From: Medicago truncatula
Lineage: Eukaryota > Streptophyta > Magnoliopsida > Fabales > Fabaceae
DNA: 64,000 nt
Direction: 5' to 3'
Assembly: GCF_003473485.1 (NCBI RefSeq)
Contig: NC_053042.1
Span: forward strand, 7,277,501-7,341,500
A program made the translations under genes and the position numbers. Below the pieces are notes generated by a model, which was not told the origin of the DNA, ran no database searches, and saw only the letters and a program-made list of their open reading frames with translations. Shown here one piece after another: positions 11-63,880 of this stretch; position 1 is the first letter of the stretch, and each line of letters starts with the position of its first letter.

Positions 11-3000
11 TCAAAACCGGCAAAACTTCCTTTTCTGCTTTACAAAAAACAGATCGTACAGTTAAGACTTACCATGCAAGACAGTATCAAGTATTTGGAT
101 ACACAATGCAAATATCTTTGGTTTACCTCGAATTTTCTTCTTTCCTGACCGTCTATGTATGCCATAAGTTCCTCTTGTCTGATCAAAGCTTCGTATAAAG
201 CCTGTTTAAAACACAGAAAACACTGGTCTCTCTTTATACATATACCAAATTTATCAATTTAGAACTCAGCTAGTCTTACTTTAAATGGTAAACTGTCAGC
301 TGCCGAGGAATGGTTTAAGCAGTGAATAAATAGTGTAAAAAATATATAGTCGGCCACAAAGTAAGCTCTTAAGTTTTTCTATGCATGTCTAACACAGTAA
401 TATACCTACAGGTCAAGTGCATAAACTCAAGACTCGGAAGATATGGTTACATTTAATGCTTAAGGTTTATCTAAATAAACTCATTAGATAGATGCGTTAT
501 AACTTGAAATTCACAATCGGAATATGATAACTGAGCAGACTATTGGCATACAGGCCAATTCGTTGGTAAATAACAGCACAGCATACAACATTTATCCTTG
601 AAACGGAGAACTCATAAAACCACAGGAATTGCAATTTATTTAGCATGAAGCAATAGCGCGAGTTAAATTTTTTAAGTGAAATACAGTTACCTTCTTTGTA
701 GTAATCAATTCAGCTTCCAATGCATCCACGCGATAAACAGCAGCATTCAGCAGCTCCTCTTTCTCACATGGCATTACATTAGGTTTTGACTGCAGCATTA
801 CAACCTTCTCTTCAAGCTCACAAAGGCGTTCCAAAGCTGATGGAGCAAGTTCTTCCTTTGTCAATATGGGAGCAGGTGACAGGGGTAGAGATTCCTCCTT
901 GATTATTGGTTGGACACTGTCAGATTCATTGTCCTTTATTCTCTTAGTCATACGAAATGCTATTGAGCGAGCAAAAGTAAAAATGGCAACAAAGAAGCCA
1001 ATTATAATAGCCCAGATATATACACGGTTTCCATCCGATCCTCCAGGCCTCGATAGATATTTTTCTGCAAGAAATAACAAATACATTACAAACAAATATT
1101 TTTTTCTTGGATGCCAATAACTAGTAAAACATCAAATCTAAAACCCTTCCCTTCAAAAAAAAAAAATCAAATCTAAAACCCAATACATAAAAAAAAAAAT
1201 TATATTGATATAGTTGAAAACGTACAAATTCCTTATATTTTTACTACAAAGAAAATTTTACTTTCTTACACAACTGATGCATAGTGTTGTGTTTTTTTTC
1301 TTAGGTAGCGGGTAAATATACATCAATCAATTCAAATCTCTGGAAAACAAAATGAAGCTCAAAACATTTAAAGGATATTGTGAACATTTAATTCTTTGTT
1401 AAAACATGTATGTTGTATAAAACCATAACCACATTCTAGTTGAATATTTCATATATTAATAATGGCGCCATATCAAATTGAATAACTATCCATCAAGTGT
1501 CCAACCTGTTGAGCCATGTGAGTTTTTAGTTGAAACTTGTTTCTCCTTCCACGTAACATCCACAGTCTTGTCAACCATGGGAACATACTCATCATACTCA
1601 GGTAAACCGGCAGAAAGACCAGCCCTACCAGCCAATCTTGCCTGTACAAACACCAAAACAGTTGTATTAATTCATTGTAACATGTATGTATCTAATCTAT
1701 CTTTTGTTTCTTCCATTTGCAACAACAGTATCAATCTCATGCCCACTTACTTCTTCATGGACAGGAGTCAACCTAGGGTTTGTATAATTCCCACTTGCTT
1801 TGGGGGAAGTGATATCTTCAACTTCAGATCCTGATTCTGCTGTTGATGTATCACTACTTCTTATCTGCACCTAAATCCAAACTGCTTATCAGAAATATAA
1901 AATCCTAAAATTCTAATTTATTAAGTATTTAAGATGGTATTAGAAACTATACCATTGGAAAGGATGCCTTATCACATTCAATCACTGTCCCCTCATCATT
2001 AGAAATAGTTACTATCTGTCTAGAACATTGTATTTCACCATTGAGAACCATCTGCATACAAACAACTGTTATAGCTAATTTACAGATGCATAGCAGAAGC
2101 AATGGCAAGATAACTGGTACATATTTAGGGAAAAATGAAGTCTAAAATAAATTAAAACCTTCAAAATGTTTGGATCCTGCCATGGCCCTTTATCAGACCT
2201 CATACAACCACCTTGATCTATACAAGTACAACTACCACCAAGAAACTCTGGCAGCTCACTGAAAAACCACACAGATAGTGAGAATGGCCAGTTGATAATA
2301 CAAGTTGATTGAGAAATAACACGATTCAGAACATCAATGCATAGTTACCTGACATCAATAATTTCAAACAACTTACTCTGGAACTTGTTTCCAAGAACCT
2401 AACAAAAAATCAGAGTCTGTCAACTATGAGAGATCATTATTTGATTGAAATACTATGAAAATAAACAAATATACCTAGTAACTCAAACAATTAATACATA
2501 CATTTATCTTTGAACTAGTTTTGGGATCAAGAAATGTTTTCACTGTGTTCCAAAGTAGCTTGAAACCAGGACCAGCGTTGATTATAAACATTCGACATAA
2601 TGTCTGCATTGAATCATTTACAGGTTAGAAGAGTGAATAGAACAATAAGTTTAGAAGCCATGAAGAATTGAAAACTATAAAAAAAAAAAAAAAAAAAATT
2701 ATGATAAAAGCAACATACTTCGGGATAGTAGTCACCATCAATTTTCTGCAGCCGCTGGATGAGTTCACGTGCAATTTTGGAGAAGTTTTTGAAACCCTAC
2801 AAAGCATAAGGAAGAATAATGCAAACAAATTATTGACTAAATTTTTAAGTCAAAACAGTGCCAAGAAAACTTTCAAGCCAAGATTATTAGACAGTAAACT
2901 TACCACACCATGAACATCCAAAATGGTTGTACTTGAATCTATATGTCTCTTTGCAGCAATAGAACAAGCAGGAAACTTAACAGCAAACGTTTTCTCAAAA

Positions 3001-4929
3001 CCCTGTACATGGTATTTTAAATACCTTTCCATGGTAGTTACTTGCATAAGCTTATTGGGATCAACTTTACCTAGCCTCTCAATATAAACAGGTCTTCCTT
3101 CTTTATCAACACCATGATAACCATGTGGATAATATTGTAGGACTTCGTCCAACTCACTGAACTCAAAATCCTAGATAGAAAGAGAGGAAACCGAATCAGG
3201 TGTAATACGAATGATGATCAATTCAAACATGATCAACCAAAGAAGAAAACAAAATAAAAGGTTGGGTGTATTCAGATTGGATGAATCACCTCCATAATTG
3301 TATCAGTACCATACTCTTTCCTCCACTGGATCATGTTAGCCCACATGAGCTTTGCCTTTTCAATATCAAATTTCCTCGCTTTCAAGAATCTGCAATAAAG
3401 TCAGCTAATTCAAATTTGCAAATAATCCAAGGTGAACATGTGTGTAAAATCTTTGGTGTAGATATGCAAAGATACCTTCTATCAACAGCATAAAATGTCA
3501 CAATTTCTGTATGTAGTTTGAAATATGAATGTTGTGATGACTCGTAGTAAGTAAATGAGTGAATCATCGATTTAGTCCCATAATTATAGGATTCAAATTT
3601 CGTCCCTAAAATTAAAAATAAAAAATAAAAAATCCAAAATGACCTCCAAGATAGAACATCCTCAACTACATTATTACCTCAAAGACAGTTTAAGGACTGA
3701 ATTGAACAACCCAAAAGGATTAATACCCGTGTTGTCAATTGCAGATTGTGGAAAATAGTGGTTTGCTCAAATTTCACTACGCAACAATGCTATAGTCACT
3801 ATTTCACAATATTTTGTACTAAACAGTGTATCGATTATTCATTCAAATTCCGCTATGCAACAGCGCTATACCGCTGCTACAGCCGCTATTTAACAATACT
3901 AGATTAATCTAATCGAGAATTTACAACTTCATTGATTATTCTGCAAATTACTCAAAGCCTACAAGGCTGCAAATTCAAAAACTATATCAATGACCCACTT
4001 TAAGCATAGGTATAACAAAAATCATTAACCTTGCATGTGTTATGATCATTGCAATCTTTATAAGCTACTAGAGAAATGAGGGAATCAACAACACAACAAC
4101 CGAGGCTTATCCCACTAAGTGGGGTCGGTTACATGGATCAAATTATGCCATATATTTTGGTCCAACTCATTAAGCTCTAAACTTTTTCTCCTTATTAAGT
4201 TCTTTAAAGTTTTTCTAGGTCTTCCTCAGACACTAGTGATATGATTATCCTCAGTTGACTATATTAGGCATCAAATGCCAAGGTAAAACTTTATGGAATC
4301 ACTCTGACCTTGACGAAAATGGATCTTAAACATATAGTTAAATTAAAAGGCAATCAATAAGGAGCAATAACCTCAATAACATATGATAATCATCATGTCT
4401 TGATGGCAACAAACAATCTGAAATTAGTGAATGTCGAAAAGCATCCACTGCTTGTAACTCCTTAACATCTCTAACATCTTCAATGGCAAGCGAATTACTC
4501 CGACTAGGATTCTTTCTCCGGCTGCTTTTCTTCCTAAGAGAATGCCGAAATTTACTGGAAGCATTTATGACTTTCTTTTTCAAACTTCCATTTCTTGTTC
4601 TCCTATTATCATCTTCCGAATTCTCAAAATCTGATTTCCTCTGCTCTCTTCTTTCATCGTTACCAGAAAAACCTTCAAAACCTAATCATCATCATCATCA
4701 CAATTATCAACAATCCAAAAAATAAATAGATAAATAATTCTTGATTTATTTGTATTAATTAGACGCTGAGAAGCTGGGAATTTAAGGTTGAAACCCGCAT
4801 AGCATAATTGAGCTGACATAACCTCAATTGAATTGATGAAAAGAGATAATTATAAAAAATAGATATAAAAGAATGAAAGAAAGAAAAATACTGACATGGA
4901 CGAGCGAAGCGATCAAGAGGACCAGACAT
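11..4929 (-). CDS. SFH: SEC14-like phosphatidylinositol/phosphatidylcholine transfer protein with C-terminal nodulin domain (14 coding exons, 620 aa)
   Basis: Family role: binds and exchanges phosphatidylinositol and phosphatidylcholine at membranes and supports phosphoinositide signalling in polarized growth. Coding exons, all with GT-AG borders: 4896-4929, 4372-4681, 3290-3389, 2904-3170, 2719-2796, 2502-2603, 2349-2398, 2159-2258, 1953-2051, 1751-1864, 1506-1641, 691-1064, 127-201, 11-34. They sum to 1863 nt in one frame. The start [16 protein letters not shown] is typical of plant SFH proteins. A lysine/arginine-rich stretch follows, then CRAL-TRIO-N with [12 protein letters not shown], then the CRAL-TRIO lipid pocket (roughly residues 150-325, with [11 protein letters not shown] and ELPEFLGG). 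A hydrophobic segment lies near residues 478-500, followed by a coiled coil and a basic tail ending KRKFCRF, as in the Nlj16-like nodulin domain that binds PI(4,5)P2. The last coding exon is only 24 nt. Which of several SFH paralogues this is cannot be decided here. Confidence 0.93.
1131..1181 (+). mobile_element. Micro-retroposon-like insertion in an SFH intron
   Basis: Identical 16-bp direct repeats at 1131-1146 and 1166-1181 flank a 19-bp insert that begins ttcccttc and ends in oligo(A). This is the layout of a LINE/SINE target-site duplication around a near-empty insertion. Confidence 0.6.
3728..3903. repeat. Dispersed MITE-like repeat in an SFH intron
   Basis: This segment has weak terminal inverted repeats (gtgttgtcaattgc on the left, gctatttaacaatac on the right). 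Its interior repeats GCTAT/AGCG words, for example gctataccgctgctacagcc. Such 'gccgctatttgacaa' blocks are recalled as common in legume introns; this comes from memory, not a search. Confidence 0.4.
4085..4330 (-). mobile_element. Non-LTR retroelement 3' fragment (LINE/SINE tail)
   Basis: Read on the minus strand, this ends with a GACCCCACTTAGTGGGATAAG word followed by a run of TTG-like units. That end is shared by many plant LINE and Au-type SINE copies. It lies in the 982-bp SFH intron (3390-4371). The 5' boundary is uncertain. Confidence 0.4.
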
Positions 4930-5459
4930 GTGGAGAATGGAATGGTGAACAAATATTGGAGAATTTGTGAAATAATGGAAGCATGAAAATAGAAAGAAAG
5001 AAACAGAAAAACAGAACAAAATTTAGAATATTAGAATATATTTTTTTAGATTAGATTAGATGGTAGTAGGTGTCGGCAGAAAGAAAAAAAAAAAGAGTTG
5101 GAATGAACGGAGAAGAGAAGAAACGGTGAAAAGGAAATAATAATAATGTAACAACGAAAACAAACTGTTAATCAATGTATTTATTAAAGTCAGAAACGGT
5201 TTGCTTCTTTGTTCTTTCAGCTTGCCAAGGCCGCCACGATGTTTTTGTATTATTTTAATTAAGCTAATGATTGAATGAGTAGCTTTTTTTTTTCTTTTTT
5301 TTTTTGGTTTTGGTGGGTAGCTATGACTACAAGTGAAAGGAACATTTATTTTTACTTTTGCTTTTTATAAAATATTTTTTTTATTTTTATTCTTGTTTTC
5401 AAAGTTTATATGCTAATTTTTTATTTTCATACAAGTAAAAAAGAAACAATGTTGCATTA

Positions 5460-5715
5460 TACTACCTCCGTTCCTATATATAAAATCCTTTTATCAAAAT
5501 CACGGAAATTAATATAGTGAATATTTGTATAAAAGTTGTTTGTAATCATTATTGTTTTTATAATTTTATCCTTTATGAAAGATGGTTAGTTTATGTTTTC
5601 AACATGATATTTATTGTTCATTCAAGAAAAATATGTATAATAAATAAAGGTATGTATGTAAAGAAATAATTAATGTAGTTGGAAATAGCAAAGGGGTTTT
5701 ATAGAAAGGGACAAA
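5460..5715. mobile_element. Stowaway-like MITE
   Basis: The left end reads ctacctccgttcctatat after TA. The right end (aaaggggttttatagaaagg) is its imperfect inverse. It is about 250 bp and A+T-rich with no coding capacity. Confidence 0.5.
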
Positions 5716-5908
5716 AAAAATTCTCAAAATACACGTCGCAATTTTATAATGTGCATTATTCACATAGATGTTGTATGATTTGTATTAACGAATATTTTCA
5801 AAATATAAAATTTTTATAATTTTTTATTATATATAATTAATAATATTAATTATCAAGGTTGTGTATTGACATCTGTACCGTGATTGATTGCAATATATAT
5901 TTCAGAGT
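5716..5908. mobile_element. Decayed copy of the MITE family seen at 61712-61964
   Basis: This follows the 61.7-kb element along its length: the words ctcaaaata, tgtgcattattcacata, aatattttcaaaatat, tataattttt and gttgtgtattgacat recur in the same order. The TA-flanked ends are degraded. Confidence 0.5.
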
Positions 5909-6070
5909 CTTGTTAACGAGTGTCCCGATCACTCTTTAAGTATCTCAAATTTAGTAATTATACTTTTAAAAAGTTAACAATTACAATTTCCAATGCATTC
6001 ACAACTTTTTATTTAAAACTTACAATTTAAAGTGTTTAAAGAGTGTCTCAGAACACTCATTAACATTTCC
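5909..6070. mobile_element. Foldback MITE (family with copy at about 25030-25225)
   Basis: The ends gtcttgttaacgagtgtc and gaacactcattaacattt are inverted copies of each other, and a second inverted pair lies just inside (cactctttaag/tttaaagagtg). The same ends and spacing recur near 25.03-25.22 kb. Confidence 0.5.
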
Positions 6071-6654
6071 CTATATTTTAAAACGGATAGACTAATACAT
6101 AAGCCGGAGTTTGGAGAAAGTCTTGGTTGGTCACAAACACAAATCAAAACTACTTAGGGGTAAACACATAGATGACAAAAATTAAAAGATAAAAGTAAAA
6201 AATGATATGACTAATTTATTTTTCTATATGAATTTAAAAGTGCAAATACAAATCCACTATAAACCATTATTTACACTTGAATAGAAGGCAAGCGGGCAAC
6301 AAGTTGCGCCGCTAGACCTTTTTGGATGGTAAAACCAATCATCGTGATTCGTGAACACAACATTCATGGACCTAGAAGACATGACATTATTATGCATGAC
6401 ATTTTGAACTTTATGCAGAAGCTCAACAGTCTCTAATGCTAGGAAACCGAAAGTGTCAAAAATAAATGATATAAAAAACATGTTAATTATCAGAACATGC
6501 TTTTTCTATTAATAATTTTTTCTAATTATGTGTGTGCGCTTCTAAATATTTTTCATTTAGGATTGTGTCTATAGAAGAGTCGCTGAGTTTCAAGTATGTG
6601 ATCCTCTCTTATCCATCTTAAAATACCTTTTTTTCATGTGAAAACCGGATGATT

Positions 6655-6699
6655 AAAAAACTGAATCTTTTTTGTCAAAAAAAAAAAAACTGAATCTTT
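6655..6699 (+). mobile_element. Micro-retroposon-like insertion
   Basis: Identical 16-bp direct repeats (6655-6670 and 6684-6699) flank the 13-bp insert tttgtcaaaaaaa. Confidence 0.5.
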
Positions 6700-6931
6700 A
6701 ACGTGCCGGTAGCGTTTCATTTTCCGGGTCCTACAACAAGTAATGCGTTATTATTTTCCAATTCCGCCATGTGTCTTTAGGTAGATCCACTATTATTATT
6801 TTCTCAAAAAAACTTGGCTGGAACTAACTCACCGTCATACGGAGGTAGTTGGTGGCTACGTCCAAATTCTAAACCTTCATCTACTCGTTTTCCTTTTACT
6901 TTTCTCATTCATTATTAATTTGGAGTTAATA

Positions 6932-7067
6932 CTCTCTGTTTTAAAATATAAGCAAATTTGACTTTTTAAGTTCATTCGATTAATGATGCATGTGGTCCGG
7001 ACCACATGCATCATTAATCGAATGAACCTAAAAAGTAAAATTTGCTTATATTTAGAAACAGAGGGAG
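6932..7067. mobile_element. Near-perfect palindromic Stowaway-like MITE
   Basis: The arms meet at a central ggtccggacc and pair over almost the whole 136 bp. The ends are ctctctgttt and aaacagagggag, flanked by TA on both sides. A longer relative lies at 23169-23363. Confidence 0.8.
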
Positions 7068-7106
7068 TATTAATGAGCCAGAATTTTATCCAAAAGTCAA
7101 TCATGT

Positions 7107-7393
7107 AATCCCTCCGTTTCAAAATGAGTGTCCTTTTAGTCAATTACGCACATATTACATTAAGGAATGAAATAAAGTAGTCAAATATCATAGCAATTTT
7201 ACCAAATTATTCTAATCAACTATTTATTTGTTTTTAATTAAAAAAGAAATATTTTGAAAATAGTGTAACATAGTATTAATTGAAGCGTATAATTAAAAAG
7301 AAAAATTTATTATTGCATTGAAAACAAGTGACATTTATTTTAAAACACTTTTTTTTTTTTTTTTTGTTAAAACGACACTCATTTTAAGGGAGT
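7107..7393. mobile_element. Stowaway-like MITE
   Basis: The ends ccctccgtttcaaaatgagt and actcattttaaggg form terminal inverted repeats beside TA. The interior is A+T-rich. A long T run at about 7349-7365 interrupts the right arm. Confidence 0.65.
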
Positions 7394-7592
7394 ATAGTTA
7401 TTTATTCTACTAGAGAAATTGGAGTACTGTAAACTCACACAAAGCTCTTACTATTTTGGTACGATACGCAAAGATGATATTGGCCAATAGTATTTTACTG
7501 GTTCTGCGTGAGTTGGGGACCAAAGGGAAGTATTGACGAATGACTTTCCTTCAGCCGAAGGCATTGTTTGACCTTATTAAAAACCAAATGCA

Positions 7593-8145
7593 TATTTGTA
7601 CTCAACATTTGTTGACCTTTCAACAGGTAAGATTTTCTAGTAGCCCTACTATAATTTAAGATATTTATAAAGTAATATCGATAGGTGACACACTCTAATT
7701 GACCAATAATATATACTATTAGTACCTTAATGGTACACAAATGGAATTCTATATTAACATCATCCAACTTATTGTAGGCCCTATTGCATTGACATGCTTC
7801 TATTTACAATTAGTATAGTTTTAGAACATGGAAAACTGTTGTTAACATAAATTAATGTATGCTTACGTAAGCTTTATGTCCATTATTATACAAAAGTCTC
7901 AAATTAGGTTGTGCTTTGATCTCATAATTCCATATTTGCTGACCGTTAGATCAAGATCAAACAGTGACATTTGAAGCACAAATTATCTAATAATCACCGA
8001 GGTGATAAGGTATAATAGACTATAGAAACATGTCAATGCCACGGGGCCTACTATAAGGTGAATGATAATATTATATCTTCAATCATAAGGCTACTAAAAA
8101 CTCTTACATGTTGAAAGGTCAACAAATGTTGAGTACAAGTTGTAT
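7593..8145. mobile_element. Foldback element with long imperfect inverted repeats
   Basis: The left arm from about 7595 (gtactcaacatttgttgacc) is repeated inverted at 8113-8138 (ggtcaacaaatgttgagtac). The pairing continues inward, for example taggccctattgcattgaca against tgtcaatgccacggggccta. No ORF is visible. Confidence 0.6.
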
Positions 8146-11443: not shown

Positions 11444-12156
11444 AGGTCCAAGTCAAATAAAAAATCAGACTATTTAAATTAGTTCTGGCATTGAATTAAA
11501 GAATTCCTAATTTTGTTGCATCTAATTCTAATCTAGATGAATCCATGAAATATAATACTATAAAACTTGTTTACAGTTGGTAAAATCATAGATTAATAAA
11601 TCAAAGTGATGAAGGAAATAAAAAAACACAAAATTATAAAGAATTGAAACATGGATGCATGAGATGTTAGTAAAATTAAATAAATTGATTGAGATAATAA
11701 TAAGTGAATAATTTTTGTTGATACCTTTTTTATTTTGTGAGATTAATAGAGAGAGTTAATGATTATTATGAATGAAGGTTGGAATAGAAGAAGCTAGTTC
11801 TGGTTCTGGAACCGATGATGATCATTCAGCGCAACAGAACAAGTTTGGATTATGTTTATGTTCTTTCCTTTCCCACGTAACCGGTTTTACCGCGGGTCAA
11901 GTTTAGTGGATGAGATAAGACAATAAATGGAACTTCTGTTGTGTTTGTGGGTGGGACCCGATCACTCATTTTGTTAAATTATCAATAAAAATAAATTCAA
12001 CAAAAATAATATACAAACATTGTCCAACCTTTCAAAGATACAAACATTGTCCAAGTAAGGAATCAAACGAAAGAGAGATTGTTAAAAATTTAACGTTATC
12101 ACAAATGCCACAATTCCTTCTATCACAAAAATCAATAAATATTAACCTATTTTTTG

Positions 12157-12895
12157 GGTGGCATTTCACACGGGAAATGAAAGTTGGATTCAATGATTAG
12201 ATTAAAGTGTGGGAAAGTTGGATTCAATGATTAGATTAAATGAAGAATATATTCTTAACATGCTTTCTCAACACTAGATTTTTCTTCACACTATCTTCCA
12301 ATAATTTAAAAATTCCGAAAATTAATTTTCAGAAATTAAAAAAATTGAAAAAAATTCACATAATTTTTTTAAAAAAATTATGTAATTCATTTATTGAATG
12401 TTAGAATTTTTTTTTGAAAAAATGAAAAAAAAAATTCCAGAATTTTATTTCAAAAACCTTATTTTCCAGAATTTTATTTTCTTAGAAAAATAAAAAACTT
12501 CAATTTCAAAATATTTTTTTTAGGATTTTTAATTTATTTTTCAGAATATCTTATTTTATTATGAAATTAAAAAATATATTCTTTTTAGAAAAATAAAAAC
12601 TTATCTTAGTTTCCAAAATTTTATTTTTATTAAAATATTTTATTTTTCAAAAAAAAAAAAATCTAACATTCAATAAATGAATTACAGAATTTAAAAAATA
12701 TATATTTGAATTTTTTTTATATTTTTTTAATTTCTGAAAATTAATTTTCAGAATTTTTAAATTGTTGGAAGATAGTGTGAAGAAAAATCTAGTGTTTAGA
12801 GAACATGTTAAGAATATGTTCTTCACTTAATCTAATCATTGAATCCAATTTCCCATGATGGGAAAGGATTAACCTTTCCCATGTGAACACACACC
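12157..12895. mobile_element. Mutator-like foldback element with 9-bp target duplication
   Basis: A 739-bp non-coding element begins GGTGGCATTT and ends ACACACC. TATTTTTTG stands on both sides (12148-12156 and 12896-12904). The arms (for example cactatcttccaataattta against its inverse near 12757-12780) pair over hundreds of bases around an extremely A+T-rich core. A 9-bp duplication is characteristic of Mutator-like elements. A 35-40-bp stretch near the left end (gttggattcaatgattagat) is duplicated in tandem. Confidence 0.75.
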
Positions 12896-12904
12896 TATTT
12901 TTTG

Positions 12905-14946: not shown

Positions 14947-14991
14947 ATTATAATTGTGTGTGTTCTAACAAAAAAATTATAATTGTTTGTG
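14947..14991 (+). mobile_element. Micro-retroposon-like insertion
   Basis: Direct repeats at 14947-14962 and 14976-14991 (15 of 16 bases equal) flank the 13-bp insert ttctaacaaaaaa. Confidence 0.5.
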
Positions 14992-16040: not shown

Positions 16041-16582
16041 AATTAACATCACACTAAAGGACTTAAGTCTCGATTCTGACAACTTTAATTTAGCCATGTT
16101 TTCCCTTCTCTTGGCTTTCCTTGATTTTGATTCTTCTGTGTTAGATTTTTCATCCTCCACAACACTACTGTTTGATGAAGTTGACTTGCTATAACACCAA
16201 TTATTATTTTTATTTTTTTAAATAAAATCCGAACTCCGGTCAGCCAATGCATTGTAATCGTCCAATAACAAAAAAACCATCAACCTGCCCTGTCATACAA
16301 CTAATTTCAAAATGGAAACTATCGCGTGAAACTCGATTCACATACCTCTATGATCTAGGATGTTTTTAGTATCTTCTTCATCTAACATAGTACCTATCTA
16401 TTTTGTCTTTTATTTGTATATATATAATCATAATAACTCGTCAATGTTCAGATCAAGTATTTGGATTCTTGTTTGAGGCCTTATAATATGCAGTGTTTAT
16501 TTATTAATGGAACCGCAACCCGGCACCTAGCCTTTGGTTTCTCCGGCGAGTTGAGTTTCAGTGGAGCTGCTGCCTGCGTTTT

Positions 16583-17262
16583 GATAAGATCATTAGTCAT
16601 TTAAGTTTAACCATTCTTCTAATCAAATGAACTTTGGTAAGGAAATGATCATCAACTTTAGAACATTCTTCTAATCACATAAACATTGGTAAGGTATGTA
16701 TTAGTCATCTAATTCTCACAAGATTAGCTTTGATAATGTCATTAGTCATCCAAAGTGTGACCATTTTTCTAATTAAATTAACTTTGGTAAGTTCACTAGT
16801 CATCCAAGTTTAACCATTATTCTAATCAAATGAACTTCAATAAGGTAATCAGTCTTCTAAATTTCACCATTCTTCTAATCAATTAAAATTTGGTAAGGTT
16901 GTTAGTTATCAAATTAATTTAGGTAAGGTCATTAATTATCCAAAGTTTGAACATTTTTCTAATCAAATGAATTTTGTAAGGTCACTAGTTATCTGATTCT
17001 AATTAAATTAACTTTTATAAGGGCATTAGTAATCAAGGTTTGAACATTATTCTAATCAAATTAACTTTAGTAAGGTCGTTAGTCGTTAAGTTATAACATT
17101 CCTCTAATAAAATCAACTTTGATAAGGCCATTAGTCATCAAATTCTACTTAAATTAACTTTGGTAAGTTTAGCCATTCTTATAATCTAGTGAACTTTGGT
17201 AAGATAACTAACCATTCATGTTAGACCATTCTTTTAATCAAATGAAACCTGATAAAGGTTAT
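16583..17262 (+). repeat. Degenerate tandem array, unit about 50-60 bp
   Basis: About a dozen diverged copies of a unit containing ggtaaggtcattagtcatc, then an aagtttaaccattcttct-like part, then aatcaaatgaactttggtaa. Spacing varies because copies have lost or gained pieces. No ORF runs through it. Confidence 0.75.
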
Positions 17263-17509
17263 TACAGCTGCTAGGGGCGTTCGTTTCATATGGTTCATAA
17301 TTCCCCTTGGAACTATGGCCACTTATTCTCAACTTGTTTTTCTTAAACGTGTTTGGTGTAATAATAATAGTCATGTTCTCAAAAAATATTTGGTAGAGTT
17401 TCTATATAGTTAGTTGTTTAATTTGTAACAAACGTGGGAATCTATTTCCTTAACCTTCACATTTCTCGAAATAATTTTTCTGCAAATACTCCTTGGCTCA
17501 TATCTATTA

Positions 17510-17752: not shown

Positions 17753-18046
17753 ATCCTTTAAAAAGTGGCCGTAATTGGGCTTTATTTTATCTTGTGAATG
17801 TACAACTAATCCACTCATTAGAGTCATGCATGAGTTTGAGCAATTGTGACGGTTTTTTTTTTTCTTTTTAAGAAAAATGTTTGTTAATTATCTTGGGCCT
17901 CAATTTTTTTCAAAATAAAATTAAACATTGTTTCGGGGACTAAAATGACATTCTTTAATGACCGGTAAAAATGACATTCTTTATCTATTAAATCAATAAA
18001 CTTCCTAACAATGGTGTATAGAAAGATACATTGATATCTAATTATG

Positions 18047-18303: not shown

Positions 18304-18334
18304 TTATAAAAAAAAAGGATTTAGTTTTAAATAT

Positions 18335-19554: not shown

Positions 19555-19599
19555 AAATATATGACCTATTGCCTCAAAACAAAAATATATGACCTACTG
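19555..19599 (+). mobile_element. Micro-retroposon-like insertion
   Basis: Direct repeats at 19555-19571 and 19583-19599 (16 of 17 equal) flank the 11-bp insert cctcaaaacaa. Confidence 0.55.
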
Positions 19600-20214
19600 A
19601 AAACTTCTCATTCTTATAGTTATACGACTCATTCAAATTTACAGTGTTATTAATATTTTAAACAACAAATAATATGATAGAAAAGATGAATCAATTTTCT
19701 CTCCTAAAGTGTTAAAGTGAAAAATCAATATCAAATAGTAACAAATTTAGTGTTAATAATAATACTATTAACTTTTGAAGTTTATGTTGTTTGGTCAACA
19801 AATTAAGTCTTATCTTGTAAATTAATTTTTTTGGAAGGAAACAAATTAACATATACAATTCTATCTTGTAAATATAATATGATCAGGTCTATTTATTTAA
19901 TAAACAATATCAAAATTGATATAAAAGTTAAATTAATAAAAAAATAACATATTCTATCTTTTTTGGAATTAAAAAATAAATAACAAGGAAGAAGCATCAG
20001 TTTCTTTTCCATTTTATTTTATCCCATAGCATGTCTTGGAAAAGGATATACAATTGCTGTGTCTGATAATGCAATTGTTGTGTCATATTGTACAAATTTA
20101 TATATGTGTTGGTGAATCTCCTCAGATGTACCATTTTACTATATATTTTGGTGTGCTTTGATCATGGGCCATATTTTTCAGAGGACTACTTGCATTTTGG
20201 TGCTGGCTTGCGTT

Positions 20215-22261: not shown

Positions 22262-22308
22262 ATATATAAGATGATTGTTTTGTTTTTGAGGAGATATATA
22301 AGATGATT
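22262..22308 (-). mobile_element. Micro-retroposon-like insertion (minus orientation)
   Basis: 15-bp identical repeats at 22262-22276 and 22294-22308 flank a 17-bp insert. On the minus strand the insert reads ctcctcaaaaacaaaac. Confidence 0.55.
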
Positions 22309-23363: not shown

Positions 23364-24445
23364 TATCAAATAATTCTTACATGCCTTCCTTCAACCATGT
23401 TGTCTCATTCATGTACGATCTCATGATCCCTCCAGGGTCGTATCTGAGGCAAGGCGAAGAGGGCGATAGGCCCCAAAAAATAAGTACGAAATTTGGACCC
23501 CAATATTTTTTAAGAGTCTATTAGGCCCAAAAAAAATTGCTTAATTGCTTAGTTTTTTTGTATCGAATTTGATGTTATATATATTTATTAGTTAGAATTC
23601 AAATTGTAGGTTCGTCCTATACCACCAAAATCTTAGAAACAGCCATGGATTCCTTTCTTCCAATGTGATTCAATTTGAATAGTAGATGGCAGGAGCCGCT
23701 CATTGTCATGCTTTGTACATCGATGATAATTTCGCGTCTTCATTAGCCTTGAACGATTCACAATTATTAGACATTAGTTATCATTTTTTTTTTGACAAAA
23801 GAAATTAGTTAAACCGCGTTGAAAATTACGTATTTATAACATCGATAAAAAAAAAAAAAAACAATGATGCTTATTTTTTACTATTATTATAACTAATATA
23901 AGAAGACTAAATTAAATTTGGGACCCCTATGTTGAAAGTGGAAAAGCATTTCATTGGCCCAAGAAACCGACCACCAATCCCTTTTCCACAGATTGTCTCC
24001 TTTTTCAATTTGTTTTTATGGCAACAAATAAAGAGCTCGTACGTAGTAGTAGTAGTAGTAGAAAGAAACATAAAGAGGTGAGCACATCAATTATTGGAGT
24101 AATGCAACAAGGGGGACCTTATAATAATAGGAATGAGCGTCGACATAATATAAATATAAGATGATTTTGAAGACAGTTTCTTTTGTTTTACTTCCTTTGG
24201 TGGTTTCCAGAAAATTCTTCAAGGGGTGTTTTTCATTTTTCTAAAGAGTTCTTGGCCACTAACTGGTAAGGCCTAACTTATGGAAAGTTTTGCTTCTTAT
24301 AAACATGGTTTTATTGAACTAAAATTGATTTTGTCTCCAAACCTCAAAATGACAAATGACAAGGAGATCATATAAAACAGCTTTTGCATTAAATTAAGAA
24401 AAACATCACTTGATAGTTTTATATTAAAGGTATCCCATTTAATTT

Positions 24446-24492
24446 AAATACATTCACACTTTTTTGTTTGGTGGTAAATACTTTCACACTTT
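24446..24492 (-). mobile_element. Micro-retroposon-like insertion (minus orientation)
   Basis: Direct repeats at 24446-24462 and 24476-24492 (16 of 17 equal) flank a 13-bp insert. On the minus strand the insert reads accaccaaacaaa. Confidence 0.5.
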
Positions 24493-25616: not shown

Positions 25617-25667
25617 ATAAAGTGGATTACGTTCTTGTTCAAAAAAATAAATAAAGTGGATTACGTT
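25617..25667 (+). mobile_element. Micro-retroposon-like insertion
   Basis: Identical 17-bp repeats at 25617-25633 and 25651-25667 flank the 17-bp insert cttgttcaaaaaaataa. Confidence 0.65.
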
Positions 25668-28981: not shown

Positions 28982-29354
28982 ATTATTGAACCTCAATAAA
29001 ACAAAGTTAAAGTCCAAGGTTGTTCTGTTGGAGCTGTGTCATGAATCATGCATGTTGTGGAATAATTGAGTGAGGGTGAAAATTAGTAACTAGGGTGAGG
29101 CAATATTTATTAAGATATATTATTATTTAGATTATATTAGATTGGCAAAACTTGCAACAAAAAAAAGAGTGGAAATGACATATGAGCTGTTGATATAGGT
29201 TGCTTTAGTACTACTCAACATTGTCCAATATTAAAAAAAAGATGTTTGTGTAAGTGCTTTATTCTATGCTTTTTTTATATATATTAGTTTGTATTTTGTG
29301 AGTGTGCTTTTCTAGATGTTAAAATAGCATTGGTTCTTTTCTTACCAATAAAAG

Positions 29355-29409
29355 AGGTGCTTGATTCTCCTTCTCTCTCAAAAAAAAAAAAGGGGTGCTT
29401 GATTCTCCT
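29355..29409 (+). mobile_element. Micro-retroposon-like insertion downstream of the bZIP gene
   Basis: Direct repeats aggtgcttgattctcct (29355-29371) and gggtgcttgattctcct (29393-29409) flank a 21-bp insert that begins tctctctc and continues as oligo(A). Confidence 0.6.
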
Positions 29410-29799: not shown

Positions 29800-30299
29800 G
29801 GGTTAAATATGTTTTTGGTCCCTATAAATATACCAACTTTTTATTTTAGTCCCTCTAAAATTTTCCTTCAACTTTTAGCCCCTATAAAATTTTCTATCTT
29901 TACTTTTAGTCCATCGTTTAAAGTAAACTCATATGTAGAATTCATATTTTTAAATAAAATTTTGCAGAAAAATGTATAATATTACAAGGATCTCTCCTAA
30001 AAAAGTTTAGAATTTTTTACCAAAACATGAATTAAATATGAATTTTTATATTTTTGACGGTAAAAAATTCATATTTAATTCATGTTTTGTTAAAAAATTC
30101 TAATTTTTTTTTGGAGTGATTTTTACAATATTTCATACATTTATGCACAGTTTCATTAAAAAATACAAAAGTTTACTTAAAAATAGGGACCAAAAGTAGC
30201 GATTGAAAATTTTATATGGACTAAAAGTTGAAGGAAAATTTTAGAGGGACTAAAACAAAAAGTTGGTATATTTATAGGGACCAAAAATATATTTAACCC
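29800..30299. mobile_element. Mutator-like foldback element with 9-bp target duplication
   Basis: A 500-bp non-coding element begins gggttaaatatgtttttggt and ends accaaaaatatatttaaccc. aaattttaa stands on both sides (29791-29799 and 30300-30308). The arms pair for most of their length (ccctataaatataccaactt against aagttggtatatttataggg). Confidence 0.8.
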
Positions 30300-30360: not shown

Positions 30361-30414
30361 AAACTTGCCCATTAAATTCACTCAAAAAAAAAAAAAAAAA
30401 CTTGCCCATTAAAT
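30361..30414 (+). mobile_element. Micro-retroposon-like insertion
   Basis: Identical 17-bp repeats aaacttgcccattaaat (30361-30377 and 30398-30414) flank a 20-bp insert: tcactc followed by oligo(A). Confidence 0.65.
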
Positions 30415-35606: not shown

Positions 35607-35652
35607 ACATATTTTGATCTTGTCCAATTCAAAAAAACATATTTTGATCTTG
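35607..35652 (+). mobile_element. Micro-retroposon-like insertion
   Basis: Identical 16-bp repeats acatattttgatcttg (35607-35622, 35637-35652) flank the 14-bp insert tccaattcaaaaaa. Confidence 0.6.
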
Positions 35653-35909: not shown

Positions 35910-36120
35910 TCTGCTTATATAACTCTTTTTTTTTTTTTTTTTTTTTTTTATAAATCGGTATCTTCCGCGCGCAACTGCGGAGACTAATCCCTCGAGTATT
36001 ATGAGATTCAAATGGGAGGTAGACTCTCCCTAAGAGTTTTAACGTTGCTGCATGTCCAAGACTGGATTCGAACCTAGGCTAGAAGAGACTTGTTTCATCT
36101 CATCTAGTCTGCTTATATAA
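35910..36120 (-). mobile_element. tRNA-derived SINE with 13-bp target duplication
   Basis: tctgcttatataa flanks the element (35910-35922 and 36108-36120). On the minus strand it runs from a tRNA-like head with B box GGTTCGAATCC (about 36065-36075) to a long A tail (the T run near 35926-35950). Confidence 0.8.
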
Positions 36121-36985: not shown

Positions 36986-37002
36986 AAAAAAGGAAAGAAA
37001 GC

Positions 37003-40863: not shown

Positions 40864-40924
40864 AATATGTTGATCTCTCTGTTTTTTTTTGTTGGTTAAA
40901 TAGAGGGAAAATATGTTGATCTCT
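40864..40924 (-). mobile_element. Micro-retroposon-like insertion 3' of the RING gene (minus orientation)
   Basis: Identical 15-bp repeats aatatgttgatctct (40864-40878, 40910-40924) flank a 31-bp insert. On the minus strand the insert reads ttccctctatttaacc, then aac and oligo(A). This is the longest insert of the class. Confidence 0.6.
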
Positions 40925-56354: not shown

Positions 56355-56384
56355 TGTCTTTGGAACAACACCAAAAAGAGAGAA

Positions 56385-56546
56385 TATTTCAGTTTTGAAC
56401 TTCTCCAAATTCAATAAAAAGCTTAGAAGTGGAGGTGTCAATGAAAACAGCTTATAGCTTATAAGCTATTTCAGTTTCGAACTTCTCCAAATTCAGTAAA
56501 ATGCTTAGAAGTGGAAGTGTCAATGAAAACAGCTTATAGCTTATAC
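56385..56546. repeat. 82-bp tandem duplication in the DCAF13 leader
   Basis: The unit beginning tatttcagttttgaacttct and ending cagcttatagcttata is repeated at an offset of 82 with a few substitutions. It begins 31 bp upstream of the ATG, so it probably lies in the 5' UTR or at the transcription start. Confidence 0.8.
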
Positions 56547-57150
56547 GAAACAATTTAACATAAGCAATAAACGGCGAACAAAAGCAAGGCACTTTGATAT
56601 ATGCACACCTTTACCAACAGCGAACGGAGGAAGTAGCAATAAACGGCGGAGAACTGTGGTGGATTGGCGGTGGTGCTTGGAGGGGTCTTAGTTCGGAATT
56701 GGCACCGTAGCCGGAGATGATGTTGTGTTAGGTTGAAGGTGAACTGACCTAGGTTTTATAAATGGGCTTATGCTCTATGTTTAGGTCAGCCCAAATCAAA
56801 GACTCTAGAAAAAAAATCTTACTATAATTTATACGCATTAACACAGAAAAAAAAAAATAAATAAAAAAAAAAAGTGAATAGTTGAGCTTGTACGAAAATT
56901 TTTAGTTAGAATGAAAATATCATCCAACAATAATCAACTCTATTTTTGTTTTTTAATAATATGGGATGATTGGATCAAGATAGTTCAACGGTTCTATTAA
57001 AAAGCTGTGTTATTGAAATATGTATAAACCAATGCAGATTGATCTAGTGAGAGGAAGAAAAAGACTTAACGTAATTATTCTATGAATCGTGCTAAGAGCA
57101 CAAATTAAAAAGGTAAAATCGAATGAAATGATAAAATTTGCACTTGAAAC
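56547..57150. other. DCAF13 upstream region
   Basis: Likely promoter around 56600-56760 (a G/C-richer stretch). No TATA box assigned and no further gene. Confidence 0.4.
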
Positions 57151-57206
57151 GATAAATTTTTAAGTTTTTTTTTTTTTTTTTTTTGTAAAGGATAAATTTT
57201 TAAGTT
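57151..57206 (-). mobile_element. Micro-retroposon-like insertion (minus orientation)
   Basis: Identical 16-bp repeats gataaatttttaagtt (57151-57166, 57191-57206) flank a 24-bp insert. On the minus strand the insert reads ctttac then oligo(A). Confidence 0.6.
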
Positions 57207-57546
57207 ATTAAGTAAACGAATTTCAAGAAAATATTTCTATATTTTGTTGAAAAATATTGAGACAAATGGGTCCTAAATTATTTTCAAATTAATATTCTAA
57301 ATTTCTTTATATTTATATTTTAATCTTTACCATAAAGTGAGCTAAAAAAGTTCTATTTCTGATTCTTATTTTGAATTGAAATTTTTGTATTTTTAAAATT
57401 ATATCATAATGATATAATAGATTGATACATGAAATTAGCATTATTAATTAACGGGTTTTAAGCTGTGTCAGTAAGTATCGATTGTGTTATTATCTAAGTG
57501 AAAAGTTTCTTAAACAATTGCAATTCATCATATATTATCATCATAA

Positions 57547-57597
57547 TAGTAGAGTAGCTTCTCTCAAAAACAAAAAAAAAAGGTAGTAGAGTAGCTT
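57547..57597 (+). mobile_element. Micro-retroposon-like insertion
   Basis: Identical 14-bp repeats tagtagagtagctt (57547-57560, 57584-57597) flank a 23-bp insert that starts ctctcaaaaac and continues as oligo(A). Confidence 0.6.
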
Positions 57598-57929
57598 TTT
57601 ATACAAATATGTTGTGGCAAGAATATTACATGCTTGAGTCATTCAACCATTTAGTTCATGATAAGCTTTTCATGATAATGAGACTATCAACAATAGAATA
57701 TACTTCAAAAATTCAATAAAATATACTCTCTTTTTTTACACCACCAACAGTAAAATAAACTTATTGAAGAGTGACACATAGAAGCAATGTAAACACTCAA
57801 TTACTACGTACTTTCAAACTTCACTGTTTATATAGATGCAACACAATTCAAATCCTCATAACAACCATAGGTTTAATACTTCTAAAGTCTTCCCTCCTTC
57901 TACATTTCAAAAAGGAAATAATACAAAAC

Positions 57930-57971
57930 ATATAGTTGTACTTTTTTTTCAGCACATATATAGTTGTACTT
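57930..57971 (-). mobile_element. Micro-retroposon-like insertion (minus orientation)
   Basis: 14-bp repeats atatagttgtactt (57930-57943, 57958-57971) flank a 14-bp insert carrying a T run and cagcac. It is probably in the 3' flank of the peroxidase gene. Confidence 0.45.
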
Positions 57972-58143
57972 CTTAAATAAATATATTTAGTACCATGCTT
58001 CTTAGGCACAGTACCATGTTATTAAGGAAAAGAAACACAAAACATAACACTCAATGACTCTTAATTTTTTTGGTGTTAACCCTCCAATTATTAGAAGGTT
58101 CCTAGACTCAATGACTCTTAATAATAATATAAAACTATGCTTC

Positions 58144-59845
<1,702 letters not shown>

Positions 59846-59923
59846 TGTGACAAGTGACTGCAAAGAGGCTTGTCTGATGATTATTAATATTGTTGTGTGG
59901 CATATTGGATTGGATTGTTTGGT

Positions 59924-59931
59924 ATATATAA
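59924..59931 (-). promoter_or_regulatory. TATA box of the peroxidase gene
   Basis: tatatata on the minus strand, about 80 bp before the ATG at 59845. Confidence 0.5.
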
Positions 59932-60959
59932 TGCTAAAGGATCAAACCACTCACTACTATCTTCAACAAATTAATCACCTAATGTATGCAAGTAGTAAAC
60001 TTATGACTTTATCAACATGTTCTGTCCTAGCCCCACCTATGATGCAATATGTAGTGGTTCTGGTTTACCTGCTCCTGGACCTTATCAAAACAGTGTATAA
60101 CTGATTTGCTTAAAAGGATTTGATTCCAAATACTAGTTTAAGTTAAAGGGTCAAGTGCAGTGCAACGTTGTAACATTTGTTCAAAGACTGAGATTGTAAT
60201 ACATTTGTTCATGTTTATGACAAAGTATGAAGTGGGTAAAATATGTTTCCTTGATTTTGAATGTAACAGACACTGCACTTTTACACACTTCATTTTGAAG
60301 CTAATCTTTATCACATTATCTAATTTACCATGTCTTTTATCATATTACCATATGGTCTAATGATATTAATTTTCATCGACTGTCAGTGTAAAACTTTTTT
60401 AGTTTTTACGCTATCTTTTTTTTTGAATCAGCATGCATGAACTTTTAGTTAGATTTGATTAAAGTCAAATGATTTCCATGATCTAAGGGTTACTATTAAT
60501 ACTATTATATTGTTTCATTATTAATGAAGCAGTAGAAGCATATTTTCTTCTCTAGCTGACGCATGGGATTGATCTCTAAAGGCCTTTTACGTGTTGAAGA
60601 TCTGAAAATTGAAAGTACTTTCATGTACCTGCAGAGACACCGCGTTAGATAGTTATGTTTAAAGATTAACATTTTGTTCTTTTTGTGGTTTTCTACTTGA
60701 GATGCAAGAAAGGAAGATGAGTAGCATTCCACATAAAGAATAAGTAGAATGTGAACACACTATGTAGTGATACAGGCAATGTGTGAATTTATCAACCTCA
60801 TAGCTCATACGGTTATGTGATTTATGACTTGGTCGTATGAAAAGTTAAAGCTAGAATGCAATTTAGTGATTTAGGAAAATAAATAACAAAATGGACCAAT
60901 CTTTGAGGGATGTGTTCAATTCAATCAATTGTTCTATGTAGAAAATCATATAGTCAAAT
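59932..60959. other. Peroxidase upstream region
   Basis: Promoter and intergenic DNA of the peroxidase gene. No other gene or clear repeat recognised. Confidence 0.4.
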
Positions 60960-61130
60960 AAACTTAATATACTTTTTTTTTTTAGATAGACGCAATGATA
61001 ATAATCACTTTATAACTCACACACATAAGTGGATGAGTTGAGGTTTGAACTCTAATCATGATGTCCAAACTAACAATTTCGACATTTTTGTAAGTTGAGT
61101 TAGGACTTACTGACAAAACTTAATATACTT
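60960..61130 (-). mobile_element. tRNA-derived SINE with 15-bp target duplication
   Basis: aaacttaatatactt flanks the element (60960-60974, 61116-61130). On the minus strand it runs from AAGTCCTAACTCAACTT (A-box region) through GAGTTCAAACCTC (B-box-like) to an A tail. Confidence 0.8.
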
Positions 61131-61299
61131 AACAAGTAAACAACATAATTAATCATATGTGTTAAGTAATAGATAAAATCTAAGAGCTTGTAAGAGGTTT
61201 ATTTACCAAGCTCTATGGCCCCTAGTTTAAGCATTTTACCGTTGTAAAGAAACTGAGGAATGACTGAACATAAAAACCTTGTTTTGATATTTGAATATT

Positions 61300-61345
61300 A
61301 AAACTAATTCTATCGTCTTGACCAAAACAAAAACTAATTCTATTG
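61300..61345 (+). mobile_element. Micro-retroposon-like insertion
   Basis: Direct repeats at 61300-61315 and 61330-61345 (15 of 16 equal) flank the 14-bp insert tcttgaccaaaaca. Confidence 0.55.
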
Positions 61346-61551
61346 CAAAATGCAAATCACAAAAGCTTTTCCTGTCAATGGTGTTCATTTCATCCAATTA
61401 TTACTATATATCAACAGTCCCCTTGATAAATAAGGACAAGGTGACAGTAAAATTTTATTATCCATTTTGTTATTCTTTTGATTTGATTCCTCGGAAAAAT
61501 AGCAGAACTGACACCAGATCGCTGATCATGAAATACTGATGATGATAAACA

Positions 61552-61998
61552 TTTAAAGTTTCCTATTTGAATGCAGAACATGCTATGTTGGTGATTAGTT
61601 TTATCTTAGCAATAAAGTTTCCTATACAAATGTAGAGCATGTTGTGTTAGCAGAAATACAATAATATCTTGGGAATTTTACAGAACATTGTATGTTCGAA
61701 ATTAAATGTTACTCCCTCCATCTCAAAATAATTGTCACAATTTGACCGTGTGCACTATTCACATAATCTCGTTTGACCATATTTTTGTACTATATAAAGA
61801 CAAATGTTTGTGAATAAAATGTTCGATTTGTCTCAATGAATATTTTTTAAAATATCAACTTTTTATAATTTTTGCTAATATATAATGAAAGATATTAATG
61901 GTCAAAGTTGTGCATTGACATGTGTCAAAGTCAAAACTGTGACAATTATTTTGATACGGGGGAGTAGCATGTTCTGCATTCAAATAGGAAACTTTAAA
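61552..61998. repeat. 34-bp perfect inverted repeats enclosing a MITE
   Basis: 61552-61585 (tttaaagtttcctatttgaa, continuing gcagaacatgcta) equals the reverse complement of 61965-61998. A third, diverged copy in the left orientation lies at about 61614-61645. Confidence 0.85.
61712..61964. mobile_element. Stowaway-like MITE
   Basis: ctccctccatctcaaaataa with ttgtcac, and gtgacaattattttgatac with gggggag, are terminal inverted repeats. TA stands on both sides (61710-61711 and 61965-61966). It is 253 bp, with a decayed relative at 5716-5908. Confidence 0.8.
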
Positions 61999-62294
61999 AA
62001 TAAAGAGTTGAATATGTATGACAACACACTTTGCATTGCTATCATCCTTCAAGGCTTTCAACAGGGTCCCCATTTTTAAGGGCTTACTGATCTAACTTCA
62101 ATAATTACATACAAATATGTACAGTTTTACATGAGTTAAGACCTATTATACTGCAAGTCATTATAATTGTATATCTCACAAGTGGCTTCAAACACTACTG
62201 ATACAAAACTATATTAATCATGGTTCTACACCACCTAATGACAGATATGTATGAAAGTTAATATTGAAATAACATATATACATGTTTAAGAAAG

Positions 62295-63880
62295 TTAAGG
62301 TCGTGGTACACACAGTTGCCTCATCGGTGTGAGCAACCTCGCAAAACGTAGGGGCACATGAGCCTTGATATATGTCCCTTGCTCGGTATATTCCTATATA
62401 CAAATCCGATAAAGTGTCAGGAAATCCAACAATAACAAATAGGAAAACACTAAACATTGTTGAATCTGCCAGACTATGATCAACTGGTAGATATTGATAA
62501 ATTAATTACTTACAGTTTTCTCAACCATTCCAACTTGGTGTATGGTGCTGAGAAGGTCCCCATTTTCAAATGGTAACAAAGCTTCCACCCATACCATGGA
62601 GTCCTGTTAAAGAATAACAGAATTTTAACCAGCAAATGTAAATAGTTCTAACAAATGGACCGCATGATATCGAAATCATATTAAAACAGGCTTCAACTTC
62701 GTACCTTTAGTTTGTCTTGAACTGCATTACAGAATTCTTGTATGCCATCGCCACTTAAGGCAGATATGCATACAACATCATCTCTTTTTCCAGCTTCTAG
62801 CCTGATTTTCTGGGGATCACTAGCCCTGTCGATCTGCCATAAGAAAAAGATATGCCAAAATTCTCAAGTTGTAACAGTTAAACTTCAAGTGCACAGTAAA
62901 GTGGATGAAGGAAAAACTATTCATTCCTAAAGCAATAGAAGTACGCATCGTAGTCTAATCTTAAGAGAATAATTTCATTGCTATGAGAAACTGATAAACA
63001 AAATTAAAATGACAGCCAGTTTTGAACCAAAAGCAGTCCAATGTAGACCATTCTTCAAATCCAGGAATTGATTTTAAACCGTTATGGTAATTTCCCAATA
63101 TGTAATATTAATGATGATCTTAAATGATATGATATTATGAAAATAAACAATGCATAAAAATGCCAGTATGACAACTTTTAAGATTAATAGCCATATTCCC
63201 TCTTGTTGCCGTCATGAACCAACTATCCTAGAAGCAATAAGCACATAAATGGGTTTTATTGTTATAACATGTCTTCTCACACAAGCCCTTTTGGGTTGAA
63301 AGAAGGACAATGCACTGATCCATCTATCTTCAGCTGATTTGTTTTTGCAGTTCAAAATGGGGGGTGGCAATGATCAAACTCTTGACCACTTGGTCACAAG
63401 AGACTCTGAAAACATTTATGAACAAACTATCCTAAAGGCTTAAGCAATTAGTTTATATAACATGAATAGACGTTTAACTAGAATAATCTCAATAAATTAT
63501 TTGATCACTCTGCTTTCAAATGTCTCAGTCCTAAAGCTAGTCCTTCACATAAGTGAGAATTTCATCCCAAATAATGTGGTATAGGTTTTGATAGTGTTAT
63601 GAATAGAATTAATTCAGAGTTAACAAGGATATCATGATATTTCTCAACAAAAAAAAAAAAGGATATCATGATATTGTTCATTAAATGAAACAATAAAGAA
63701 ATTAAAAAATGAATTTGTTATAAAACTTGAAGGACAAACTGCAATAGTTGTGTAAAGGAAAACCAACAAAACCATTTTCAAAATACCTTGTTCCAGACCA
63801 TCAGCGTTGGGATTGATGATACATCTAGTTCTGACAGAACTTTGTCCACAGCATTTATCTGTTGGTCGGCCAGGGGGTGA
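62295..63880 (-). CDS. HFLX: HflX-type GTP-binding protein, 3' part (gene continues beyond the right edge)
   Basis: HflX GTPases bind 50S-type ribosomes and split or rescue them; the plant form is probably plastid-targeted, but its N-terminus is outside the window. Coding exons visible: 63787-63880, 62705-62833, 62514-62603, 62295-62393, all with GT-AG borders and one frame. The protein reads HPLADQQINAVDKVLSELDV, then IPTLMVWNKID with the G4 motif NKxD spanning the first junction, then VVCISALSGDGIQEFCNAV with the G5 SAL. The C-terminal domain follows (DSMVWVEALLPFENGDLLST, then AHVPLRFARLLTPMRQ). It ends with CVPRP and TAA at 62295-62297. The G1-G3 motifs and the N-terminal HflX domain lie in upstream exons not in view. 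Confidence 0.88.
63625..63675 (+). mobile_element. Micro-retroposon-like insertion in an HflX intron
   Basis: Identical 17-bp repeats aaggatatcatgatatt (63625-63641, 63659-63675) flank the 17-bp insert tctcaacaaaaaaaaaa. Confidence 0.65.

Follow-up and report, generated by a model that had tools for sequence, protein, structure and literature searches.

Oligo(A)-ended micro-insertions in Medicago truncatula as probable footprints of aborted target-primed reverse transcription

In Medicago truncatula, a stretch of 64,000 nucleotides (contig NC_053042.1, positions 7,277,501 to 7,341,500; here called the window) contains a dispersed class of micro-insertions, in which a few pyrimidine-rich nucleotides and an oligo(A) tail lie between two copies of a short target site duplication (TSD). 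These sites are very probably traces left when target-primed reverse transcription by an L1-type enzyme, of the kind encoded by long interspersed nuclear elements (LINEs), was aborted. A first-pass annotation of the window had proposed target-primed insertions that retained almost only the tail, and this proposal was supported by the A-tail, the duplications, and a 3′ terminus that is shared with a retroposon. The class recurred in other stretches of the genome outside the window (429,922,655 bases in 42 contigs, with the window on contig 1).

All 16 sites listed by the first-pass annotation were recovered at the same starts and with the layout repeat–insert–oligo(A)–repeat, the A end lying on the + strand in 11 and on the − strand in 5, as it had reported. 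Its duplication length of 14 to 17 bp needed slight widening to 14 to 18 bp, or to 22 bp with one mismatch when the site at 29350 was extended. An unbiased scan for direct repeats (effective length of at least 13, offset 20 to 50) returned 21 short-range repeats in the window, 17 of which were flagged as A-tailed, namely, the 16 sites plus one at 17942. No tail was flagged in the remaining four (12011, 12435, 47026, and 54756), although 12011 (CCTTTC-AAAG) can be placed in the class as a short-tailed member. Comparison with shuffled sequence, which had been suggested as a check, was carried out with five null models of 25 runs each (whole and local dinucleotide shuffles, Markov 3 and 5). Mean counts were 0.08 to 0.28 for repeats (maximum, 2) and 0 to 0.04 for repeats with an oligo(A) end, and a chance origin of the window sites was rejected. 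Among three weaker candidates, those at 23771 and 25510 carried TTTTGTC-An with degraded duplications (scores of 9 and 5, respectively), whereas 18624 showed no clear duplication by eye and was not confirmed. Members added to the original 16 were 12011, 17942, and a pair of longer inserts (19811, 39 bp; 58049, 40 bp). Searches of the window for RNA families and tRNAs gave no matches. The features, including two full elements resembling short interspersed elements (SINEs), were as follows.

1131..1181, + strand: micro-insertion, TSD 16, TTCCCTTC-An
6655..6699, + strand: micro-insertion, TSD 16, TTTGTC-An, 3′ end in common with the ∼490-bp retroposon
12011..12054, + strand: micro-insertion with short tail, TSD 17, CCTTTC-AAAG (added)
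14947..14991, + strand: micro-insertion, TSD 16 (1 mismatch), TTCTAAC-An
17942..17983, + strand: micro-insertion with short tail, TSD 16, ATGACCGGT-A5 (added)
19555..19596, + strand: micro-insertion, TSD 14, TTGCCTC-AAAACAAAAA
19811..19873, − strand: 39-bp A-tailed insert, TSD 12, end TTTCCTTCC-A7 (added)
22262..22308, − strand: micro-insertion, TSD 15, CTCCTC-AAAAACAAAAC
23771..23812 (ends approximate), − strand: degraded micro-insertion, TTTGTC-A10, TSD ∼12 with mismatch
24445..24492, − strand: micro-insertion, TSD 18 (1 mismatch), CCACC-AAACAAA
25510..25560 (ends approximate), − strand: degraded micro-insertion, TTTGTC-A19, weak TSD (score 5)
25617..25667, + strand: micro-insertion, TSD 17, CTTGTTC-An
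29350..29409, + strand: micro-insertion, TSD 22 (1 mismatch), TCTCTCTC-An
30361..30414, + strand: micro-insertion, TSD 17, TCACTC-An
35607..35652, + strand: micro-insertion, TSD 16, TCCAATTC-An
35910..36120, − strand: full SINE-like element, 185 bp, TSD 13, A24 tail
40864..40924, − strand: 31-bp insert, TSD 15, TTCCCTCTATTTAACC-AACAAAAAAAAACAG
57151..57206, − strand: micro-insertion, TSD 16, CTTTAC-An
57547..57597, + strand: micro-insertion, TSD 14, CTCTC-AAAAACAAAAAAAAAAGG
57930..57971, − strand: micro-insertion, TSD 14, ATGTGCTG-A6
58049..58122, − strand: 40-bp A-tailed insert, TSD 17, end AACACC-A6 (added)
60960..61130, − strand: full SINE-like element, 141 bp, TSD 15
61300..61343, + strand: micro-insertion, TSD 14, CGTCTTGACC-AAAACA
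63625..63675, + strand: micro-insertion, TSD 17, TCTCAAC-An

In the tails at 19555, 22262, 57547, 61300, and 24445, a C interrupts the A run at a similar position (AAAC to AAAAAC); these tails were possibly copied from the A-rich 3′ end of another template.

A catalogue of 264 kb yielded 54 raw hits, compared to 0.6 under the null. Seventeen rows were removed by eye (14 rows, or 13 places, in other repeats or with an unclear tail, two mirror rows, and one tandem copy), leaving 37 sites for TSD statistics; some removals, for example that of L014:5000, were matters of judgement. On the tail strand, the order was duplication, short pyrimidine-rich piece, A-tail, and duplication, with the poly(A) tail at one end of the insert adjoining the second duplication copy. 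Duplications were 12 to 22 bp long, which suits the roughly 7 to 20 bp of L1-type products, and exact in 27 of the 37 sites; their last base was T in 23 of 37 (P = 3e-4). They started with A in 26 of 37 and were preceded by T in 20 of 37. Around the putative first nick, for which a TT/AAAA-like site would be expected, +1 was A in 20 of 22 and −1 was T in 13 of 22, but the alignment favors A there.

The piece before the tail had been described as most often pyrimidine-TC. A C preceded the tail in 16 of 18 window sites, while the full Py-T-C motif was present in only 9 of these. The C was significantly enriched over window A-runs with poor duplication scores (16/18 versus 42/147; Fisher P ≈ 1e-6). 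Adding 13 sites of an initial 200-kb sample to the 18 of the window (pre-tails cut by eye; one tandem copy, L016:4370, included) gave a C next to the tail in 25 of 31; across the final six pre-tail bases, C made up 39% and T 42%. Inserts of the automatic catalogue with pre-tails of 4 to 11 nt likewise had C before the tail in 25 of 31 cases. Two loci had unusual arrangements. L014:6571 has a double tail (TACTTTC-A14-TTC-A14) flanked by 12-bp duplications, and it has the look of copying that switched from one tailed RNA to another. At L016:4370 and L016:4561, the same micro-insertion is found twice, ∼190 bp apart; here, the duplication apparently came after the insertion. For pre-tails such as TTCTAAC, inspection by eye raised a branch-point (lariat) origin, which was abandoned since it would not suit the majority of pre-tails.

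Two pre-tails, TTTTGTC and TTCTCTC, were followed in depth. TTTTGTC-A10 occurred at 1404 places in the genome (56 for the reversed pattern) and TTCTCTC-A10 at 468 (28 for the reversed pattern). Outside the window, 49 TTTTGTC places on contig 1 were read, comprising nine loci and 40 pieces (a tenth locus, L036, located 44 bp from L035, was dropped). Twenty-three of them qualified as micro-insertions by a duplication score of ≥9 together with 3 to 9 nt of pre-tail, most frequently 6 nt (9/23), and 16 of the 23 had exact duplications. Exchanging the downstream flanks gave 0.44 per 43 places, with a maximum of 2. For TTCTCTC, 19 of 20 places on contig 1 scored at least 9, with a null of 0.825 per 20 for any such match; 17 were micro-insertions with pre-tails of 3 to 9 nt, the other two being L088 (pre-tail of 12 nt, score 9) and L085 (a 37-nt body). 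No duplication was found at the remaining place, L097.

A common retroposon body was carried by 9 of the 49 TTTTGTC places. These nine copies end ...ATTTGAATGAATGAATATC..TTT..TTTTGTC-An, with variation, and none was cut within ∼110 nt of the tail (pieces of 251 to 261 bp); one, L054, has an internal deletion. When L072 was extended upstream by L102, an 18-bp duplication with one mismatch was found to bound ∼490 bp before the tail, and we therefore consider this a retroposon of that length. A second copy, L037, aligned to the L072 element over 485 columns at 71%. Using a 128-base query from the 3′ region (L079), 1953 first-look candidates were obtained in the genome, and all 40 that were scored matched at 91 to 100%. 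Moreover, GAATGAATGAATA located 3 to 20 nt before TTTTGTC-A10 marked 152 body ends, versus 0 for the reversed pattern. The TTTTGTC micro-insertions had 3 to 9 nt before the tail and none of this family body, and thus do not qualify as SINE or retroposon copies themselves. Their inserted letters match the retroposon 3′ end; for TTCTCTC, the counterpart is the one copy with a 37-nt body (L085). The pre-tail TTTTGTC is the 3′ terminus of the dispersed ∼490-bp retroposon, which ends ...TTTTTGTC-An and is one likely template. A second dispersed repeat, with the end GACAATTTATGGTTTTTGTC-An or similar, was seen at L035, L038, L056, L062, L066, and L074; it has the TTTTTGTC end in common with the ∼490-bp retroposon.

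The first-pass annotation had also named mRNA ends as potential templates. If these were the main source, the sites would be extremely truncated processed pseudogenes made by the same enzyme. L1-like retrocopies do exist in dicots (PMC4838847), poly(A) sites of M. truncatula are of the form YA (PMC4117952), and the longer inserts at 19811 and 58049 resemble the ends of 3′ untranslated regions by eye. However, mapped poly(A) sites of this species are UA in 60%, CA in 22%, and GA in 11% of cases (PMC3832601, Table 2), with plant averages of 38, 28, and 14% (PMC3832601). The C before the tail in 25 of 31 sites departs from such usage (binomial P = 3.5e-11 at 0.24 and 2.5e-7 at 0.35), so that the inserts do not match processed pseudogenes in this respect and mRNA ends are unlikely as the main source. 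In addition, the same pre-tails of 6 to 7 nt recur hundreds of times. We therefore regard an origin chiefly from mRNA as improbable, although mRNA may supply some of the longer inserts; among the templates proposed earlier, a short retroposon is documented for the pre-tail TTTTGTC and a 37-nt body (L085) for TTCTCTC.

The common 3′ end also bears on two explanations that need no abortive copying. Repair of staggered double-strand breaks could duplicate the ends by fill-in and add filler with no retroposon involved, and small tandem duplications arising from breaks with complementary ends have been described (PMC8355091) and have a similar geometry. However, the inserts are not generic filler: they have an oriented A tail, a preceding C, and recurrent TTTGTC or TCTCTC; most short-range repeats of the window are A-tailed; and the 3′ end is that of a retroposon. 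Break repair is thus very improbable as the origin of the class. Alternatively, full-length insertions might have lost their bodies later, leaving the tail and duplications, and the identical 3′ ends of micro-insertions and body-bearing copies would be expected from this. Such deletions would, however, have needed to end time after time at two precise points, the inner border of the first duplication and 5 to 9 nt before the tail, while keeping exact duplications in most TTTTGTC micro-sites, which makes this explanation barely credible.

Abortive target-primed reverse transcription, in contrast, would produce the layout in a short series of steps. As the anatomy suggests, a first nick would be made at a T/A-rich site, and synthesis of complementary DNA (cDNA) would start on a retroposon RNA at its poly(A) tail. 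Copying would cover the tail and ∼5 to 9 nt of the pyrimidine-rich 3′ terminus, the remnant length actually observed, and would then fail. With the top strand cut some 12 to 20 nt away, its 3′ end, often T, would join the purine-rich end of the cDNA, probably via pairing of 1 to 3 nt, and repair would leave the order seen at the sites: duplication, a few nucleotides, A tail, and duplication.

Several observations weigh against this reading. The A-rich start of the duplications, which the first-pass annotation had taken as a sign of LINE endonuclease nicking, was seen, but is in part a product of the alignment, in which the A's of the target run together with those of the tail. A pre-tail of 6 nt is by itself insufficient proof of which RNA was copied. 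YTC-A10 as a whole occurred 15,657 times, only 1.4-fold more than the control (11,064), and the excess is therefore concentrated in particular ends. Six of the 49 TTTTGTC places belonged to another repeat, and 11 fell outside the micro-insertion, body, and other-repeat groups; two of these 11 had weak duplication hits (L053, with a pre-tail of 52 nt, and L071, with 14 nt of low complexity). No duplication was found around the body copy L037 within the 1.5 kb examined upstream. A motif look for a LINE reverse transcriptase in the stretches read gave no convincing match, and there were no paralogous empty sites within the window.

To describe remnant length, we used a catalogue of 294 kb (the window plus 23 stretches of 10 kb) in which pre-tails of 0 to 60 nt were allowed; since the search patterns disfavored pre-tails shorter than 5 to 6 nt in both the TTTTGTC and TTCTCTC sets, this catalogue is less biased with respect to length. 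Its removal list comprised 18 places: the same 13 as above, the tandem copy, L023:7455 (which was kept in the 37-site set), and three of L029-L030. Among 45 curated A-tailed inserts, 31 had 4 to 11 nt before the tail, 27 of them 5 to 9 nt, while 5 had 0 to 2 nt and 9 had 13 to 57 nt. Of the five shortest, one is at window site 57151, where rescoring admitted a mismatch, and two share a single locus (L019) that has A-rich repeats. Hence, the mode lies near 5 to 9 nt, and tail-only cases are few. Pre-tail length was not cleanly independent of tail length, the two being weakly anticorrelated (Spearman −0.43, P = 0.015, n = 31). The window was denser than the other stretches, with 15 of the 31 inserts of 4 to 11 nt in 64 kb and 16 in the 230 kb outside. 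Extrapolation gave a total of ∼30,000 in 430 Mb, a rough figure because the stretches were hand-picked and curation was by eye.

As for why copying would end so early, we tentatively propose, while leaning against it on balance, an abortive phase in which the enzyme copies the tail plus ∼6 nt and often fails to clear the 3′ end of the template, the failures being sealed into the chromosome; this would parallel abortive initiation by RNA polymerases. Where the end was intact and followed by ten A's, micro-insertions outnumbered body copies 23 to 9 for TTTTGTC and 17 to 1 for TTCTCTC, ratios that do not show an excess over all body copies, because tails and ends erode and only 40 of the 1953 candidates were scored. 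Folding gave no support for a hairpin at the terminus of the retroposon RNA as the block, as five 3′ ends were no more stably folded than their shuffles (z = −0.79 to +0.39). This folding result, together with the similar length of 5 to 9 nt across different sequences, would suit another explanation, in which oligo(A)-tailed RNA remnants are trimmed by exonuclease to ∼6 nt up to the bound reverse transcriptase and then copied by run-off. The 9 inserts of 13 to 57 nt speak against such tiny templates, which we consider unlikely. If the abortive phase is real, the LINE nicking events recorded in the genome may perhaps number tens of thousands, by the same rough extrapolation.

Four A-tailed insertions lie within 1 kb (57151 to 58122) on the downstream side of a peroxidase-like gene (open reading frames at 58144 to 59941, − strand; named by eye from the translation). 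Legume sequences were matched by a RING protein of the window, at 98% for the top match and at 72% for the best named ones, from Lathyrus oleraceus and Trifolium pratense. Also in the window, a diverged tandem repeat block with units of ∼53 bp was noted at 16564 to 17266, and two long inverted repeats resembling miniature inverted-repeat transposable elements at 12212 to 12854 (143-nt arms, 92% complementary) and 29800 to 30299 (130-nt arms, 91% complementary).

Simple poly(A) insertions occur among human disease alleles; what is new here is the abundance of the class and the near-constant stop 5 to 9 nt past the tail. Among the literature matches listed, judged by titles and the starts of abstracts and with “poly(A)” not searchable as a term, we recognized none describing such a class in plants. 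The micro-insertions are too short for repeat annotation to name, would account for some of the short duplications and oligo(A) runs found in plant DNA, and could serve as small, cleanly polarized insertion markers. They also raise the question of whether the stop of the reverse transcriptase reflects host defense or a property of the enzyme.

Among known systems, plant L1-clade LINEs and poly(A) SINEs have poly(A) ends like those of the micro-insertions; 224 of 233 flowering-plant L1 families are listed with such ends (PMC3747384, Table 3), and relaxed 3′ recognition has been proposed for plant L1 lineages (PMC3747384). These elements carry bodies, whereas the micro-insertions have none and are presumably immobile. 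LINE-1-like retrocopies of dicots are alike in poly(A) and target duplication and, possibly, in a TTAAAA-like target, but are long copies of genes (PMC4838847); in the same report, one of four polymorphic Arabidopsis retrocopy cases was called L1-like and one was left open. Small tandem duplications from break repair likewise have a short duplicated stretch, but their abstracts mention no A-tail or retroposon 3′ terminus (PMC8355091, PMC5730883). The simple poly(A)/poly(T) insertions of human LINE-1 are also tail-only and dependent on the L1 endonuclease; an example is a ∼120-bp poly(T) insertion in NF1 that may be an Alu, L1, or processed pseudogene in severely truncated form (PMC3219598). 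That case is a single disease allele with a long tail, in contrast to the dispersed class described here, with mostly short tails and a near-constant remnant of 5 to 9 nt, which may therefore be a frequent product of LINE activity in M. truncatula.

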